This document shows, one piece after another, positions 58,225 to 64,000 of a DNA stretch of 64,000 bases. The translations under genes and the position numbers were made by a program. Position 1 is the first letter of the stretch; each line of letters begins with the position of its first letter. The notes beneath the pieces are model-generated. The model was not told the origin of the DNA. It made no database searches and saw nothing but the letters and a program-made list of their open reading frames with translations. The DNA comes from an uncultured Ignavibacteria bacterium (lineage in GTDB: Bacteria; Bacteroidota; Ignavibacteria; SZUA-365), in NCBI GenBank assembly GCA_913061095.1, contig CAJXVM010000005.1, positions 62,001-126,000 on the forward strand, read 5' to 3'.

Positions 58225-59505
58225 TCAGCGCCCGGCAACGACCGTGGCAAAACCGACGGCGCGATGGATACCGCCGAATTCGTCGTCATCGTAATAGATG
58301 ATGGCCCAGTAGAGATTGTTGGCTCCCCAGGTGTTACCCGCGATGGAAGTCCAGTCCTGCTCAACCACATATCCCAGTTCTTCATCGTATCGGCCGAGGA
58401 TGTACTGGTAGTCATAGGCTCCACGCAGGAGCATGTGGTCAACAATGTAATGGCCTGTTTCAGCGTCGTATGCAAGCCGGTCTTCGGGCTGTGGATCCCA
58501 GTGATTGAAGATGCCGGCAACAAAGACGTCCCGGTTTTTCATGAACGGATGCTCCAGTTCGAAACGCACGCAGAGATACTCGGCATCAAACGAGCGAAGT
58601 GGCGGCGTTTCCGCGGCACCGTAGTATCGGCTGGCATCCGCGCCGAAACGGTATCGGGTAAAATCCGGTCCCTCGAACTTGGTGGCGAGGTGCTGTTCAG
58701 GATACACGGCCGGTCTGCGTAGATCATAAAGACGGTAACCGTTGCCCGGCAACACATTCTCATACGTGAATGTCTTCTCCCTCAGCCCGATGCCTTCGAC
58801 GAAAGTATTGGGTTGGCGATCGTAGCTGTCGACGCGGTACTGCCTGTACAGGTTGAAATTCTTGTAGAAATCGACGGAGCGAACGTAATCAGCAAAAAGT
58901 GCGTCGGGGACGCGTATCTGGAGCCGCAGGCGGTGAACCTCGTCCAGCGGAGGATTGTAGTCCGTCCAGTAGTCATTCGTCACACGCAGATTGCTGCGAA
59001 CGATATTCTCCACGACGATGAATCGTCCGGAGGCATATATGTTTTCCTCGTCGTTTTCATCGACGATGTCGAAGATCCAGTTACCCGAATAGAGAAAGCG
59101 CACGAAGGAGTGCTGTTCACTCGGGAATGTGTTGATGAAGCGCCAACGGTAGTGCTGCACACCGGTTGGGGCGTGCTCGTAAAACAGCTCCCGGGTATAG
59201 GTGAAAAAATCATCACGCACGAAAAAATCCGTGTCGATATTCCAATCCTTGTCACAATGATGGAAGCGAATCATCAGCCGCGGTGGCATGTCCTCATTGA
59301 CATCGAAGCGGATCGTGATTCTTGTCGGTAGCGAGGTTTCAGCTGCTGACCGGGCGGTATCCGTTTTCACAATAACGGGCAGATTTGTTTCATCGCTCCC
59401 GCCATATACACGCAGTCCGCGAATAAACGGCATTTCCGGGCAGGGATTCTGGGCAAGCAGGGCGACAGGAAGGAGGAGAAATGTCAGCAGGGATGAAATC
59501 TTCAT
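58225..59505 (-). CDS. DUF5103 / T9SS plug-like protein
   Basis: A 426-aa protein with a signal peptide (LLTFLLLPVALLAQ). Its length and segments are typical of DUF5103: IRGLRVYGGSDETNLPVI, LMIRFHHCDKDW, FTYTRELFYEHAPTGVQHYRWRF and FVAGIFNHWDPQPEDRLAYD. DUF5103 includes the Plug subunit that closes the periplasmic side of the SprA translocon in the type IX system. That assignment agrees with the T9SS cargo seen elsewhere in the window. It precedes the flippase by 57 bp. A role as a free-standing envelope protein cannot be excluded. Confidence 0.88.
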   Translation of the reverse strand: MKISSLLTFLLLPVALLAQNPCPEMPFIRGLRVYGGSDETNLPVIVKTDTARSAAETSLPTRITIRFDVNEDMPPRLMIRFHHCDKDWNIDTDFFVRDDFFTYTRELFYEHAPTGVQHYRWRFINTFPSEQHSFVRFLYSGNWIFDIVDENDEENIYASGRFIVVENIVRSNLRVTNDYWTDYNPPLDEVHRLRLQIRVPDALFADYVRSVDFYKNFNLYRQYRVDSYDRQPNTFVEGIGLREKTFTYENVLPGNGYRLYDLRRPAVYPEQHLATKFEGPDFTRYRFGADASRYYGAAETPPLRSFDAEYLCVRFELEHPFMKNRDVFVAGIFNHWDPQPEDRLAYDAETGHYIVDHMLLRGAYDYQYILGRYDEELGYVVEQDWTSIAGNTWGANNLYWAIIYYDDDEFGGIHRAVGFATVVAGR

Positions 59506-60356
59506 GGCGCAAAACTACATGTCGCATCAATAACAAGCAACGCAGAACTGCGGTTACAGTCATCCGATGACCGGGAAATGGACCTTCGCCAATGTGGTGG
59601 AAAATAACCAAACTCAGACAGTCAATTCCATATCGGACGAAAGCAGTTCCTGGCTTCAGAGACAGAAAACCGCTGTTTTGAACAGTGGACTGAAAACAAA
59701 GCGCCGCATGAAGCAAATTTCAGAAGATACATGAGTTTTGTTATGGATTTAATCTGATCATTTTCTCGACGATCGGGAAAAAAAGCAGAAAAATATGGTG
59801 TGCAATACATATTTTTAGTGAAAATGTAATTTGGATTTCTGTATATTGGGCCTACAGCGTATATTCCGGACATCTAGATCGGAAATGTCGCTCGGAAACA
59901 GTGGCGGCCGAACGGCCGCAGCCACTGTCTTGGAAGAGGTGGTTGTTTGAAAAGCTGAGGAGGAATCCATTTTCGGTGCTCGGCCCGATTCAGGGCGTCG
60001 GCGTAGTCGGCGTTTCCGCTCAGGGCTGCTTCCGGCATCGACACATTCATCAGAAAACTTTCATCGACTGTTCCGCGCGCGGTGAGCTCAGGCTGATGAG
60101 CCTGCGTATCTCACCGTCCGGCAGTCTGCCACAGACGATACATACCGCTCTTTGAAATACGCAATAGCTGCAGTCGGATATCTGTTCTGAATCCGTGCAA
60201 AGAGCACCTTAAGTTAAATAATAATAACGGATATTGTCATCTATTATATCCTATTTATATCAATATGTTTTTGTGATGTTTAGCGCGAAAGGACAACAGT
60301 TAAGATAGAATGTAATTCTACCATCAAGTATCATTTTTCAATTCAAGGAGTACATC
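59506..60356. other. 851-bp intergenic region with structured, AT-rich leader
   Basis: No gene is convincingly supported. 59740-59870 is strongly AT-rich. A long hairpin (ACAGTGGC...GCCACTGT, 59899-59929) and a second hairpin at 60082-60114 (outer GTGAG/CTCAC, inner CAGGCT/AGCCTG) flank a GAGGAGG at 59957-59963, a strong ribosome-like site with no ATG behind it. 60210-60340 is AT-rich with two inverted repeats, GGATAT(11 nt)ATATCC at 60229-60251 and a 15-bp palindrome at 60306-60320. A long 5' leader or a small RNA upstream of the triplicated gene family is likely. Confidence 0.45.
60306..60320 (+). promoter_or_regulatory. Perfect palindrome upstream of the triplicated gene cluster
   Basis: TAGAAT-GTA-ATTCTA is a perfect 15-bp inverted repeat centred 44 bp before the first start codon and 22 bp before its AAGGAG ribosome site. 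It is a candidate operator for a dimeric regulator, possibly a response regulator of the kinase encoded downstream. Confidence 0.45.
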
Positions 60357-60785
60357 ATGGAAACCGTGAATGCAGCCATTTCCAATCGTACTGTTACCCA
60401 GGACCTGAATGTCGATGCCCCCGTCGCCCCCGTTGCACCGGCACAGCCGGAAGTGCGCGAGCGCAGGCGTCCGGTGTTCACCGGACTCGAGGATCACACG
60501 ATTTCGATCGACGATGCCAGCGAGCTGACGCGCAACTACCGCAAGAGCGCCGGCAAAGGCGCGATCAAGGGAGGCTTTTTCGGACGTGCCGCCATCGAGC
60601 AGGTGCTCGCGCAGGAAGGTGTGGTCGGTATCCGGTACTACTACGCGCAGGAGAATAACGGTCGTCCCGTGCTGATCCTCGTCGGTGTCGATGAGAACGG
60701 CCGCGACCTGATCGACGGATTCGTCGCCGAGCGCGCAATGCCCTGTCCGCCGTTCTGCGACATCTGGAATCCCCTCAACAGCTGA
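60357..60785 (+). CDS. Unassigned ~142-aa paralogue 1 (triplicated family)
   Basis: A 142-aa soluble protein preceded by AAGGAG. Residues 1-15 are unique; then comes a Pro/Ala-rich linker (DLNVDAPVAPVAPAQPEV), a basic motif RERRRPVFTG and a globular domain of about 95 residues: DHTISIDDASELTRNYRKS, GFFGRAAIEQVLAQEGVVGI, RYYYAQENNGRPVLILVGVD. The C-terminal signature is PCPPFCDIWNPLNS. There is no signal peptide or membrane segment. I recall short Bacteroidota proteins ending in a similar CP-x-C...PL tail but cannot name a function. From residue 16 it is almost identical in DNA to paralogue 2. Confidence 0.85.
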   Translation: METVNAAISNRTVTQDLNVDAPVAPVAPAQPEVRERRRPVFTGLEDHTISIDDASELTRNYRKSAGKGAIKGGFFGRAAIEQVLAQEGVVGIRYYYAQENNGRPVLILVGVDENGRDLIDGFVAERAMPCPPFCDIWNPLNS

Positions 60786-60787
60786 GC
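60402..60787 (+). repeat. 386-bp near-identical repeat, copy 1
   Basis: 60402-60787 matches 60959-61344 with two differences that I can find (60404 C/T, and T/C in the Val codon of the PVAPVAP linker). The repeat starts at codon 16 of the gene and ends two bases after the stop. The first 15 codons and the flanks are unrelated, so the boundary is sharp on both sides. Confidence 0.95.
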
Positions 60788-60913
60788 CCGGATCCGGAGA
60801 AACGGCCGGCGTACGGAGAACGCCGACCGGTCAGAGGAGACCCCCGTTCGACCCAGATAAAAAACACAGTGAATGCAGCCTTTTCAGGAAACAGTGAATT
60901 ACAGGAGAAAAAC

Positions 60914-61342
60914 ATGAAGACCCAGGAAACCACGCTGACCGTCAATGCCCCCGTCAAAGATCTGAATGTCGATGCCCCCGTCGCCCCCGTCGCACCGGCA
61001 CAGCCGGAAGTGCGCGAGCGCAGGCGTCCGGTGTTCACCGGACTCGAGGATCACACGATTTCGATCGACGATGCCAGCGAGCTGACGCGCAACTACCGCA
61101 AGAGCGCCGGCAAAGGCGCGATCAAGGGAGGCTTTTTCGGACGTGCCGCCATCGAGCAGGTGCTCGCGCAGGAAGGTGTGGTCGGTATCCGGTACTACTA
61201 CGCGCAGGAGAATAACGGTCGTCCCGTGCTGATCCTCGTCGGTGTCGATGAGAACGGCCGCGACCTGATCGACGGATTCGTCGCCGAGCGCGCAATGCCC
61301 TGTCCGCCGTTCTGCGACATCTGGAATCCCCTCAACAGCTGA
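60914..61342 (+). CDS. Unassigned ~142-aa paralogue 2 (triplicated family)
   Basis: A 142-aa protein identical to paralogue 1 from residue 16 to the end, with a different N-terminus (MKTQETTLTVNAPVK). AGGAG at 60903-60907 sets the ATG at 60914, although the frame is open back to 60869. The spacer from gene 1 (128 bp) is unrelated to that before gene 3. The identical core with an exchanged N-terminal peptide suggests recent duplication or gene conversion limited to the functional domain, with the N-terminus free to vary or under selection to differ. It probably shares a transcript with both neighbours. Confidence 0.85.
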   Translation: MKTQETTLTVNAPVKDLNVDAPVAPVAPAQPEVRERRRPVFTGLEDHTISIDDASELTRNYRKSAGKGAIKGGFFGRAAIEQVLAQEGVVGIRYYYAQENNGRPVLILVGVDENGRDLIDGFVAERAMPCPPFCDIWNPLNS

Positions 61343-61344
61343 GC
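60959..61344 (+). repeat. 386-bp near-identical repeat, copy 2
   Basis: Second copy of the 60402-60787 segment, offset by 557 bp, within paralogue 2. Synonymous divergence is almost nil, so the two copies are very young or are kept alike by conversion. Confidence 0.95.
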
Positions 61345-61392
61345 AGCGACAGAAACGAGTACAGAGTTATTTTCACGTGATATTTCAAAGGT

Positions 61393-61824
61393 ATGACATC
61401 AATGAATGATCAGAACAAGACACAGGCGACTCAGACGAACGACACGCGCACGCTGAACCAGGACATGCCGATTGCCCCGGTAATGCCTCCTGTTCGCGAG
61501 CGCCGCCGTCCGGTGTTCACCGGTTTCGAAGATCACACGATCACCGTGGAGGAGGCCGGAACACTGACCCGAAATTATCGCATGGCGGCTGGACGCGGTG
61601 CGGTAAAGGGCCGGTACTTCAGTCGAAGCGGTATCGAGCAGCTGCTGATGCAGGAAGACGTCGTCGGAATTCGGTACTACTATGCCGAAGACAGCGAGGG
61701 TCGTCCGCAGATGGTGCTGGTTGGTGTTGATGCCAACGGCAAGGATATGACGGAAGGCTTTGTCATCGGCAACGGTCTGCCGGTTTCGCGGTTCCACGAA
61801 CACGTCAATCCGCTGAACTCGTAG
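61393..61824 (+). CDS. Unassigned 143-aa paralogue 3 (diverged member)
   Basis: A 143-aa protein with the same plan as paralogues 1 and 2 but only about 60 percent like them in the core. Shared blocks are RERRRPVFTG-EDHTI, LTRNYR, VVGIRYYYAED, LVGVDANGKD and the final NPLNS. The C-terminal Cys pair (PCPPFC) is replaced by LPVSRFHEH, so the cysteines are not essential to the whole family. The N-terminus is polar, Thr/Gln-rich, then MPIAPVMPP. The start is at 61393 or 61402. Hairpins follow before the membrane-protein gene. Confidence 0.83.
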   Translation: MTSMNDQNKTQATQTNDTRTLNQDMPIAPVMPPVRERRRPVFTGFEDHTITVEEAGTLTRNYRMAAGRGAVKGRYFSRSGIEQLLMQEDVVGIRYYYAEDSEGRPQMVLVGVDANGKDMTEGFVIGNGLPVSRFHEHVNPLNS

Positions 61825-61832
61825 ATGCCGTT

Positions 61833-61943
61833 GATGCGGTCTGCCCGCATCTTCCGATGGCGACGGGTTTTTGTGAAAGATATGCGGAGTCGTATATTTG
61901 GCTGTACATGAGAGGGTTGTCCTTTTCCGGGACACCCTCCCAT
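61833..61943 (+). promoter_or_regulatory. Two hairpins between paralogue 3 and the membrane-protein gene
   Basis: GATGCGG/CCGCATC (7-bp stem, about 61833-61851) is followed by a T-rich GGGTTTTTG at 61865. A larger imperfect hairpin at 61907-61943 pairs CATGAGAGGGTTGTCC with GGGACACCCTCCCATG. The first could act as a weak terminator, letting the small proteins be made in excess over the membrane protein and kinase; the second could stabilise or attenuate the downstream message. Confidence 0.4.
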
Positions 61944-61975
61944 GTAGGTTGCCATCTTTCCCACCTCATGCAAGG

Positions 61976-62800
61976 ATGACTGTGTTTTCAGCTGTATTCA
62001 GTCAGATCCCTTTTCTTCTGCATAGCCTTCCTGGCGATTTTCAGGTTGCGTTCGGTGCGATTGCCGGTGCTGCTCACGACCTCGGTTTCATGACAAACGC
62101 TGCCGAGAAATTAATCGCCCGCATTGCCTTCTTTTCAGCCTTTACATGTATCATCCCTCTCATCATCGGCGCGAAAAAGTATAGGGAGCTCGATCAGGGT
62201 GCAAGGCTTCTTACGATAAATCTGCTGATCGTACTCTGTGCAGAAATCATCAGCTATATCCTGCTGGTGGGTTATCGAACGTTTGCAATCAGCACGCAGA
62301 TTGTGTACAGCATTTATACCCCGATCGAATTCGTTCTTTTCATCCTCATGTTCAGGCACTGGCATGACGGGAAGACGGTCCGCAAACTTCTGACAATAAG
62401 TATTCCGGTTTTCCTTTTTCTCTGGATCGCCGGTCAGGCCTGGCTTTCATACCAGGGGCAATTCATGGAAGGGCAGGTCGATTTCGCAGACGTCCTGCTT
62501 CCGGTCGAAAGTCTCATCCTGATCATTGTCGCGATCGGAACCCTGATGAAGATCATCAGAGATGAAACAACACCTGTTGTCAGCAGTCCCGTGTTCTGGA
62601 TCACTGCCGCAATTCTGTTCTACTTCACCGGTAATCTGTTCGTTTTCACCTTCCAGAGCATTATCCTGGAAGTATCCGATATGAAGCAGTTCTGGTATCT
62701 CCATTCAACCATGACTTTCGTCAAATACGGATTGTTCGCCGTCGGGCTTTATTTCGCCGGAAAAAAAGCGAAGCAGACTCCCACTCCTCATTCGACCTGA
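61976..62800 (+). CDS. Seven-helix membrane protein of unknown function
   Basis: A protein of about 274 aa with seven predicted membrane helices: IAFFSAFTCIIPLIIGA, LLTINLLIVLCAEIISYILL, IVYSIYTPIEFVLFILMF, LLTISIPVFLFLWIAGQAW, LLPVESLILIIVAIGTLM, VFWITAAILFYFTGNLFVF and TFVKYGLFAVGLYFAG. The C-terminal tail is short and basic. No transporter motif is visible; the layout is that of 7TM sensory or adaptor proteins. The start is uncertain: ATG 61976, GTG 61982 (better spaced from AAGGA) or ATG 62090, at the first helix. It lies between the triplicated family and a histidine kinase on the same strand. Confidence 0.7.
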   Translation: MTVFSAVFSQIPFLLHSLPGDFQVAFGAIAGAAHDLGFMTNAAEKLIARIAFFSAFTCIIPLIIGAKKYRELDQGARLLTINLLIVLCAEIISYILLVGYRTFAISTQIVYSIYTPIEFVLFILMFRHWHDGKTVRKLLTISIPVFLFLWIAGQAWLSYQGQFMEGQVDFADVLLPVESLILIIVAIGTLMKIIRDETTPVVSSPVFWITAAILFYFTGNLFVFTFQSIILEVSDMKQFWYLHSTMTFVKYGLFAVGLYFAGKKAKQTPTPHST

Positions 62801-63000
62801 ACGCTGTTGTGACGTACCGGAATTGCACAGGGCGGAGGTCACCACAGGAATCGGCTATTGAGAAGAAGTATTTTCTTTCCTATTTTGACCGTATGCAGCA
62901 CCATCTCAGGTGTCTTTGTCTTTAGCTCCCGATGAGGCGCCGTGTGCGTGCCGTTTCAGCAACGGCATGAGCGTTCTTTCTGCAACAGACTGCGCAAGAC

Positions 63001-64000
63001 GTGACTGAATTGAATTCCATCTGGCTGGTCATCGTTCTCGGAACGGTTGTCCTTCTGAGCCTCGCCGTGGGAATCATCGCGATCATTATTTTCCAGCAGC
63101 GGAAAATGTTCGCGATGCAGCAGAAGAACCTCGAGCAGCTCGCCGAAAGCGAGAAACGCTATCGGCGCCTGGTGAAGCTTTCCCCGTTGCCCATGGTCGT
63201 CGCCATCGCCGAGCGCATCGTCTATGTGAACGATGCGGGGATCAAACTCTTCAGCGCTTCCGGGGAGGACGAAGTCTACCAACGCTCCCTTTACGAGTAT
63301 CTCACCACCGATTTCGAGCACCCGGAGCAGAACCGCTTCCCGGCCATGCTCGAGCGCGAGGAGGAACTCTACAATGTCAAGGGACAACTGGAAAAGCTGG
63401 ACGGCCAGATCATTGACATCGAGCTGACCGCCATCAACATTTCTTTCGATGAACAGGAAGCGAAGCACATCGTTCTGCGCGATATCACGCAGGAAGAGCG
63501 GCACAAGGCTGAGCTGATTGCCGCAAAGGAGCGTGCCGAGCAGTCCGACAAGCTGAAGGACGCCTTCATCGCGAATATTTCCCATGAGATTCGCACGCCG
63601 CTGCATATCATTATCGGGTACAGCAACCTGATTACCAATGAACTGGTCGGCAACCTGTACCCGGAAATGGAATCCTACTTCCAGGCGATACGGCGCGGCA
63701 GCCAGCGCCTGATGCGCACGGTCGAGCATATCCTGAATATCTCCAGCATCCAGGTCGGCACGTTCTCCGTTCGACCCGAGGAAATCCGCGTTTCGGATCG
63801 CGTTGCGGAACTGGTTCATGAGATGACCTCGCTCGCGAAGAAAAAGGGTCTCGAGCTCACGTTTACTTCCGAATGTCCCGCGGCCATTCTCTATGCCGAC
63901 CGCTACTGCATCGATCAGGCCGTGTCAAACGTTATCGACAACGCGATCAAGTTCACCAAGAAAGGTGAGGTCAGCACACGCGTCTACTGCGTTGACCGCC
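63001..64000 (+). CDS. Sensor histidine kinase with PAS domain (cut by the right edge)
   Basis: The first 333 residues are visible. One N-terminal helix (WLVIVLGTVVLLSLAVGIIAIIIF) is followed by a coiled coil and a PAS domain (about 52-170; RYRRLVKLSPLPMVVAIAERIVYVNDAG). A linker and the dimerisation domain follow, with phospho-acceptor His in FIANISHEIRTPL and the start of the ATPase domain (NVIDNAIKFTKKG, N box). The G boxes lie beyond the window. The start is GTG 63001, since the frame is closed at 62968-62970 and no ATG precedes the membrane helix. There is a 200-bp gap from the 7TM gene; a 13-codon frame (62967-63008) overlaps the start and could be a leader. Confidence 0.9.
   Translation, partial: MTELNSIWLVIVLGTVVLLSLAVGIIAIIIFQQRKMFAMQQKNLEQLAESEKRYRRLVKLSPLPMVVAIAERIVYVNDAGIKLFSASGEDEVYQRSLYEYLTTDFEHPEQNRFPAMLEREEELYNVKGQLEKLDGQIIDIELTAINISFDEQEAKHIVLRDITQEERHKAELIAAKERAEQSDKLKDAFIANISHEIRTPLHIIIGYSNLITNELVGNLYPEMESYFQAIRRGSQRLMRTVEHILNISSIQVGTFSVRPEEIRVSDRVAELVHEMTSLAKKKGLELTFTSECPAAILYADRYCIDQAVSNVIDNAIKFTKKGEVSTRVYCVDR

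Follow-up and report, generated by a model that had tools for sequence, protein, structure and literature searches.

The tandem genes A1 and A2 near the end of the 64,000-nucleotide stretch of Ignavibacteria DNA analysed here (the window) are most probably old paralogues in concerted evolution, a reading that we put at a probability of about 0.8. What their products partner or signal is graded separately below. Comparison with relatives shows that the two gene starts, N1 and N2, and parts of the spacers predate the species splits and have been kept by position, while the core has been overwritten repeatedly, synonymous sites included. Homologous recombination between the cores, by gene conversion, unequal crossing-over or both, would homogenise the copies. 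The conclusion that recombination is at work is itself strong. The third gene of the array, B, has escaped homogenisation.

All features described here lie on the forward strand. A1 (paralogue 1, 60357..60785) and A2 (paralogue 2, 60914..61342) each encode 142 aa behind an AGGAG ribosome site, and B (paralogue 3, 61402..61824) encodes 140 aa. A whole-genome search found only these three members of the family, here called F, in the source genome. From codon 16 to 2 nt beyond the stop, A1 and A2 share a 386-bp core (60402..60787 and 60959..61344) with two mismatches, C/T at 60404/60961 and T/C at 60434/60991; the exact base differences are provisional, as a short-read consensus may mask a few differences within the repeat. 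Both mismatches fall at third-codon positions and are synonymous, so the 127 encoded residues are identical. The initial annotation had described a 386-bp block repeated with two differences, which the coordinates match exactly, between genes with unrelated starts and spacers. The starts are indeed dissimilar: N1 (60357..60401, METVNAAISNRTVTQ) and N2 (60914..60958, MKTQETTLTVNAPVK), the first 15 codons of each gene, match at 18 of 45 bases, little above unrelated DNA. At species-level divergence (about 16% of DNA), the chance that 386 bp would show at most two differences is about 1e-26. B is 57–59% identical to A1 and A2 in protein and about 66% in DNA.

An assembly error could in principle have placed a single core twice or merged two slightly differing cores into one consensus. 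Such an error would be consistent with both mismatches lying no more than 33 bp from the repeat's left edge, and with contigs of relatives breaking at this locus. However, G001, a congener assembled in about 30 contigs, shows this pattern too, as does G008, a one-contig genome from another genus whose core copies differ at 3–4 sites, and N2 has orthologues elsewhere, which makes the second gene real. We regard the artefact as very improbable. Contigs of six draft relatives break inside A genes, and in three of these genomes the contig ends overlap exactly, by 97, 88 and 31 bp; neighbouring genes of near-identical sequence would have this effect.

Family F is present in every examined member of the window's taxonomic family, mostly as single-locus arrays (60 related genomes searched), and the flanking genes are syntenic within that family. 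The usual order is an N1 gene, one or more N2 genes, B, a membrane protein and a kinase. Copy number varies: two A genes plus B in the source genome and G004, three plus B in G001, four plus B in G008, one plus B in G002 (possibly collapsed) and one without B in G007. The fourth A copy of G008 (locus L041) is frame-shifted by deletions of 1 nt and 3 nt and is either a pseudogene or a sequencing error. In L047 (G014) and L065 a single protein contains two fused F domains, which raises the amount of F per locus by an independent route.

We compared starts over the first 45 nt, expressed as z scores, and cores over the last 327 nt, using one genome per species. Start 1 follows the pattern METVNA... 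and start 2 the pattern MKxQExT..VNAP, and orthologues of each are found at the matching array position in other species. Genes at the position of A1 occur in G001, G002, G003, G004, G009, G010 and G011; the start of A2 resembles those of the position-2 genes of G001, G004, G006 and G010. N1 against N1 gives z of about 6–18 among the source genome, G001, G002, G003, G004 and G011, and 3–4 between the source genome and G010. N2 against N2 gives about 6–15 among the source genome, G001, G004 and G006, with the source-genome N2 scoring about 9–12 against the other three. Comparing N1 with N2 inside a genome gives z under 4 in the source genome, G001 and G004 (about 2 for the source genome's N1 against its own N2). 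G008 is an exception, its two starts resembling one another. Since N1 and N2 each have orthologues in other species, both starts are older than the splits of those species. Furthermore, the source genome and G004 have in common N2 together with the 49 bp 5' of it (score 79, against a maximum of 31 in 1000 shuffles), which places the origin of copy 2 before their split.

This shared segment also bears on a history in which each lineage duplicated the gene recently and independently, acquiring a fresh start each time. Identical cores within a genome would follow from that history too, and genes 2 and 3 of G001 are a recent whole-unit duplication. A second copy older than the split from G004 contradicts it, and N2 orthology in at least three genomes is a strong counter-argument; we consider it very unlikely.

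The cores behave in the opposite way to the starts. Within a genome they are 100% identical in the source genome, 100% in G001 (three copies), 99–100% in G008 (three intact copies) and 88% in G004, and the source genome is 80–85% identical to its congeners. In a phylogenetic tree, A and B form separate clades (100/100), and the A copies group by genome: the G004 pair are sisters (99/96), the three G008 copies group together (100/100), and the rows are identical within the source genome and within G001. The B copies of nine genomes form a single clade (100/100). Synonymous divergence (dS) is 0 within the source genome and within G001 but 0.61–0.76 between the source genome and its congeners, so selection at the protein level alone is insufficient to account for core identity. 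Selection may nonetheless contribute by holding the cores alike, if every A copy has to supply one common partner at high dose. Homogenisation is not constant, since 38 of 327 sites differ between the two G004 copies. F combines identity that is higher within a genome than between species, identity at synonymous sites, and a duplication older than the species compared.

The initial annotation had offered two explanations, gene conversion of the core and the joining of a new N-terminus to a fixed domain by recombination. The first is borne out: N1 and N2 are orthologous by position across species, and cores cluster by genome. The second is not supported, given the age and fixed positions of N1 and N2. 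The starts depart from fixed positions where a tract reaches further 5' (G003 gene 1) and where a whole unit has been duplicated (G001 genes 2 and 3). In the related form of modular diversification, new N-termini are joined to a fixed core and the N-terminus is the changing, selected part. In its favour, the starts differ within a single genome and the core is constant. Across species the reverse is seen, with starts conserved by position and cores differing, and the genome holds only three members and no separate donor copies. We therefore think modular or antigenic variation of the N-terminus highly unlikely. Variable copy number together with changing N-termini on a constant core had been suggested as its signature in relatives; copy number is variable, but it is the starts that are fixed by position and the cores that vary between species.

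The limits of the homogenised tract suggest how recombination may act. In the source genome, mismatches counted per 30 nt drop from background level to none where the core begins, and reappear just past the stop. Recombination would halt where homology ends: its left limit is codon 16, and its right limit lies 2 nt past the stop. The left limit is similar in G001 and lies further 5' in G003, where the start of gene 1 is a hybrid, METV joined to an N2-like ...LTVSAPATTDL (METVYAPLTVSAPATTDL), the expected product of a longer conversion tract. Identity between genes 1 and 2 of G001 runs on into the 3' spacer, and its genes 2 and 3 are identical throughout, spacer and N2 included, as expected from unequal crossing-over in the core. 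The data fit either process, gene conversion or unequal crossing-over within the core. Crossing-over could also be the only process, with whole N2-core units gained and lost and no non-reciprocal conversion. The order in G001 and G008 (one first gene, identical repeat units, then B) is what crossovers within the core would make. On the other hand, the G003 hybrid is more simply a conversion tract, and two-copy genomes must have had three-copy states earlier. We judge exclusive crossing-over to be a serious candidate but on the improbable side.

The spacer upstream of gene 2 seems to preserve a trace of the old duplication. Positions 60866..60885 (ACAGTGAATGCAGCCTTTTC) match 60363-60382 at the start of gene 1 at 18 of 20 bases (alignment score 30; best of 1000 shuffles 22), so the spacers are not wholly unrelated as first described. 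Decayed copies of the gene 1 start occur in the spacer 5' of gene 2 in the source genome, G001 and G004, each with a score that none of 1000 shuffles reached. The old duplication thus probably included the 5' end, and gene 2 probably then took a new start downstream. The argument that simple tandem duplication would copy the flanks accordingly needs qualification: the flank was probably copied once, leaving a decayed relic of 20 bp. Alternatively, the spacer match may be a conserved regulatory element common to both places. GAAACMGTGAAT occurs just 4 times in the genome, two of them at the F locus. The same spacer carries a second GAAACAGTGAAT at 60888-60899.

Two other candidate features of the array were rejected. 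An origin of N2 by a 27-bp internal duplication (LTVNAPV resembling LNVDAPV) is significant in the source genome only, and not in G001, G004 or G006. An intercistronic hairpin after the A stops is strong in G006, G009 and G010 and moderate in G001, but does not exceed shuffles in the source genome, G004 or G008, and so is not a general feature. An Rfam scan of 59500-63100 gave no match.

The recombination pattern is of a known kind, and F is a clear part-gene example of it. Wang and Chen (2018) described full-length concerted evolution of 26 bacterial genes and deferred part-gene cases to future work (PMC6053082). As with tufA/tufB (PMC6053082), the F paralogues are closer to each other within a genome than to their orthologues, at synonymous sites as well, and the pattern recurs in several lineages. 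Unlike the genes of that survey, F forms a tandem array, only its core is homogenised, and the starts provide an internal clock.

The F protein itself has no family above cut-off in Pfam, NCBIfam or PHROGs and no clear PDB match by sequence or by fold. A CopG fold was considered and rejected, the best VIA-align Z of 3.6 being taken as chance. In a structural model built with 48 relatives, pLDDT exceeds 90 through much of the core, and residues 1–21 are disordered. The C-terminus reads CPPxC-x3-NxLNS or nearly so in most phyla, and conservation extends to its final residue. The B copies (61402-61824 and those of G001–G010) have both CPPxC cysteines replaced and keep the terminal NPLNS or a close variant. 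A hydrophobic segment or lipobox at the N-terminus of F in four loci (L051, L075, L100, L102) makes export probable in some lineages.

Codon adaptation was computed with 16 ribosomal and elongation genes from the source genome as the reference set, whose own scores are 0.63–0.76. A1 scores 0.75, A2 0.79 and B 0.68; A1 and A2 exceed each of the 39 window ORFs that are 200 aa or longer (maximum 0.73). GC3 is alike in A, B and the kinase. With ribosomal-like codon use as a proxy for expression, this suggests that A1 and A2 are strongly expressed and may have a dosage role.

The F array is the first element of a conserved module comprising F, a seven-helix membrane protein (T), a histidine kinase and a receiver or response regulator. 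We surveyed 51 loci (L053–L103) in named records of Bacteroidota, Ignavibacteria, Calditrichota, Marinimicrobia, KSB1 and Zixibacteria. T follows F in all 44 loci with enough sequence, often after a gap of 2 nt. Further along come a histidine kinase (40 of 41 loci) and a regulator of the receiver or LuxR type (31 of 32). In the window, T (61976..62800, 274 aa) is the next gene after F. The gap between B and T contains, at 61860..61945, a TTTG...TATATTT element resembling a promoter, together with a hairpin leader (GAGGGTTGTCC...GGACACCCTC), conserved in a six-genome alignment, which suggests separate transcription of T and the F array in the window's taxonomic family. In L133 and L146, T itself is present in tandem (two and three genes), flanked by F and the kinase.

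The predicted structure of T has seven helices (pLDDT 87.6) in a bundle that may be GPCR/rhodopsin-like. Matches to GPCR and rhodopsin folds reach Z 11.8–14.5 over about 200–230 residues, with a best Foldseek E of 0.028, and helical bundles score high by chance. Searches of 41 T members against Pfam and NCBIfam returned single weak unrelated matches only, with no curated family, no peptidase or prenyltransferase family, and no 7TMR-DISM or other 7TMR-type Pfam match at E 0.01. Bacterial seven-helix membrane sensors such as 7TMR-DISM and 7TMR-HD work with signalling proteins. T likewise is a seven-helix membrane protein alongside signalling proteins, but it is a separate gene without a soluble domain.

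The two-component kinase adjoining the array (63001..64000, extending past the window; 567 aa) is a PAS-HisKA-HATPase-receiver hybrid with both DHp and ATPase domains (Pfam HisKA 8.8e-16, HATPase_c 1.9e-25, Response_reg 4.9e-22); the whole gene is seen in locus L128. Outside the window's taxonomic family, the genes immediately downstream in the F-T loci examined with Pfam encode a kinase of the HisKA_3 or a related type and a LuxR-type regulator, as in HisKA_3/LuxR-type (NarL class) systems. These loci differ from that class in adding a seven-helix protein and a small protein before the kinase, and the source-genome kinase differs in being a HisKA hybrid with a fused receiver. The peptide quorum-sensing clusters agr and ComQXPA have the order small protein, membrane protein, kinase, regulator. 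The F module has the same gene order; its small protein, however, is a folded domain of about 100 aa, and T has no peptidase or prenyltransferase match.

Judging from gene order, codon use and conservation, F may be a dedicated protein partner or signal of a T-kinase receptor, with the disordered tails and separate ribosome sites setting expression or localisation and not the choice of target. We hold this as a working proposal at slightly less than even odds. F could instead be the precursor of a peptide signal, its C-terminal CPPxC-x3-NxLNS being released and read by T and the kinase. The conservation of the tail to its last residue across Bacteroidota and relatives fits such a precursor, as does the CPxxC or PP ending of most small proteins found 5' of T where F has no clear match, although a PP ending by itself is weak evidence, being present in 45 of 550 long ORFs of the same loci. 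Against a precursor, the whole domain of 100 aa is conserved beyond the tail, the source lineage has no signal peptide, and T lacks a peptidase family match. A released peptide thus seems to us rather unlikely. The T genes without a clear F match are those of L132 and L137–L145, mostly preceded by a diverged small protein; several of these proteins are lipoprotein-like, and no such small protein was found 5' of T in L134 and L135.

The partner or signal proposal extends, more speculatively, to a module of Bacteroidota and related phyla, not previously described, in which a small protein with a CPPxC...NxLNS tail signals to a GPCR-like seven-helix receptor, and in which one family has turned the signal gene into a dose-amplified, self-homogenising array with position-specific starts. 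In this full form we think the idea doubtful. A literature search for the F-T-kinase-regulator module found no description, though one may exist, and the module is apparently undescribed and widespread.

The array is a clean bacterial case of concerted evolution limited to part of a gene. Because the unconverted starts date the duplication, homogenisation can be demonstrated without guessing the history. The F-T-kinase-regulator module is the more interesting result. It points to a conserved sensor cluster in which neither of the first two members belongs to a Pfam or NCBIfam family, and which could be tested in cultivable Bacteroidota with a single-copy module, such as Flavobacterium or Hymenobacter.
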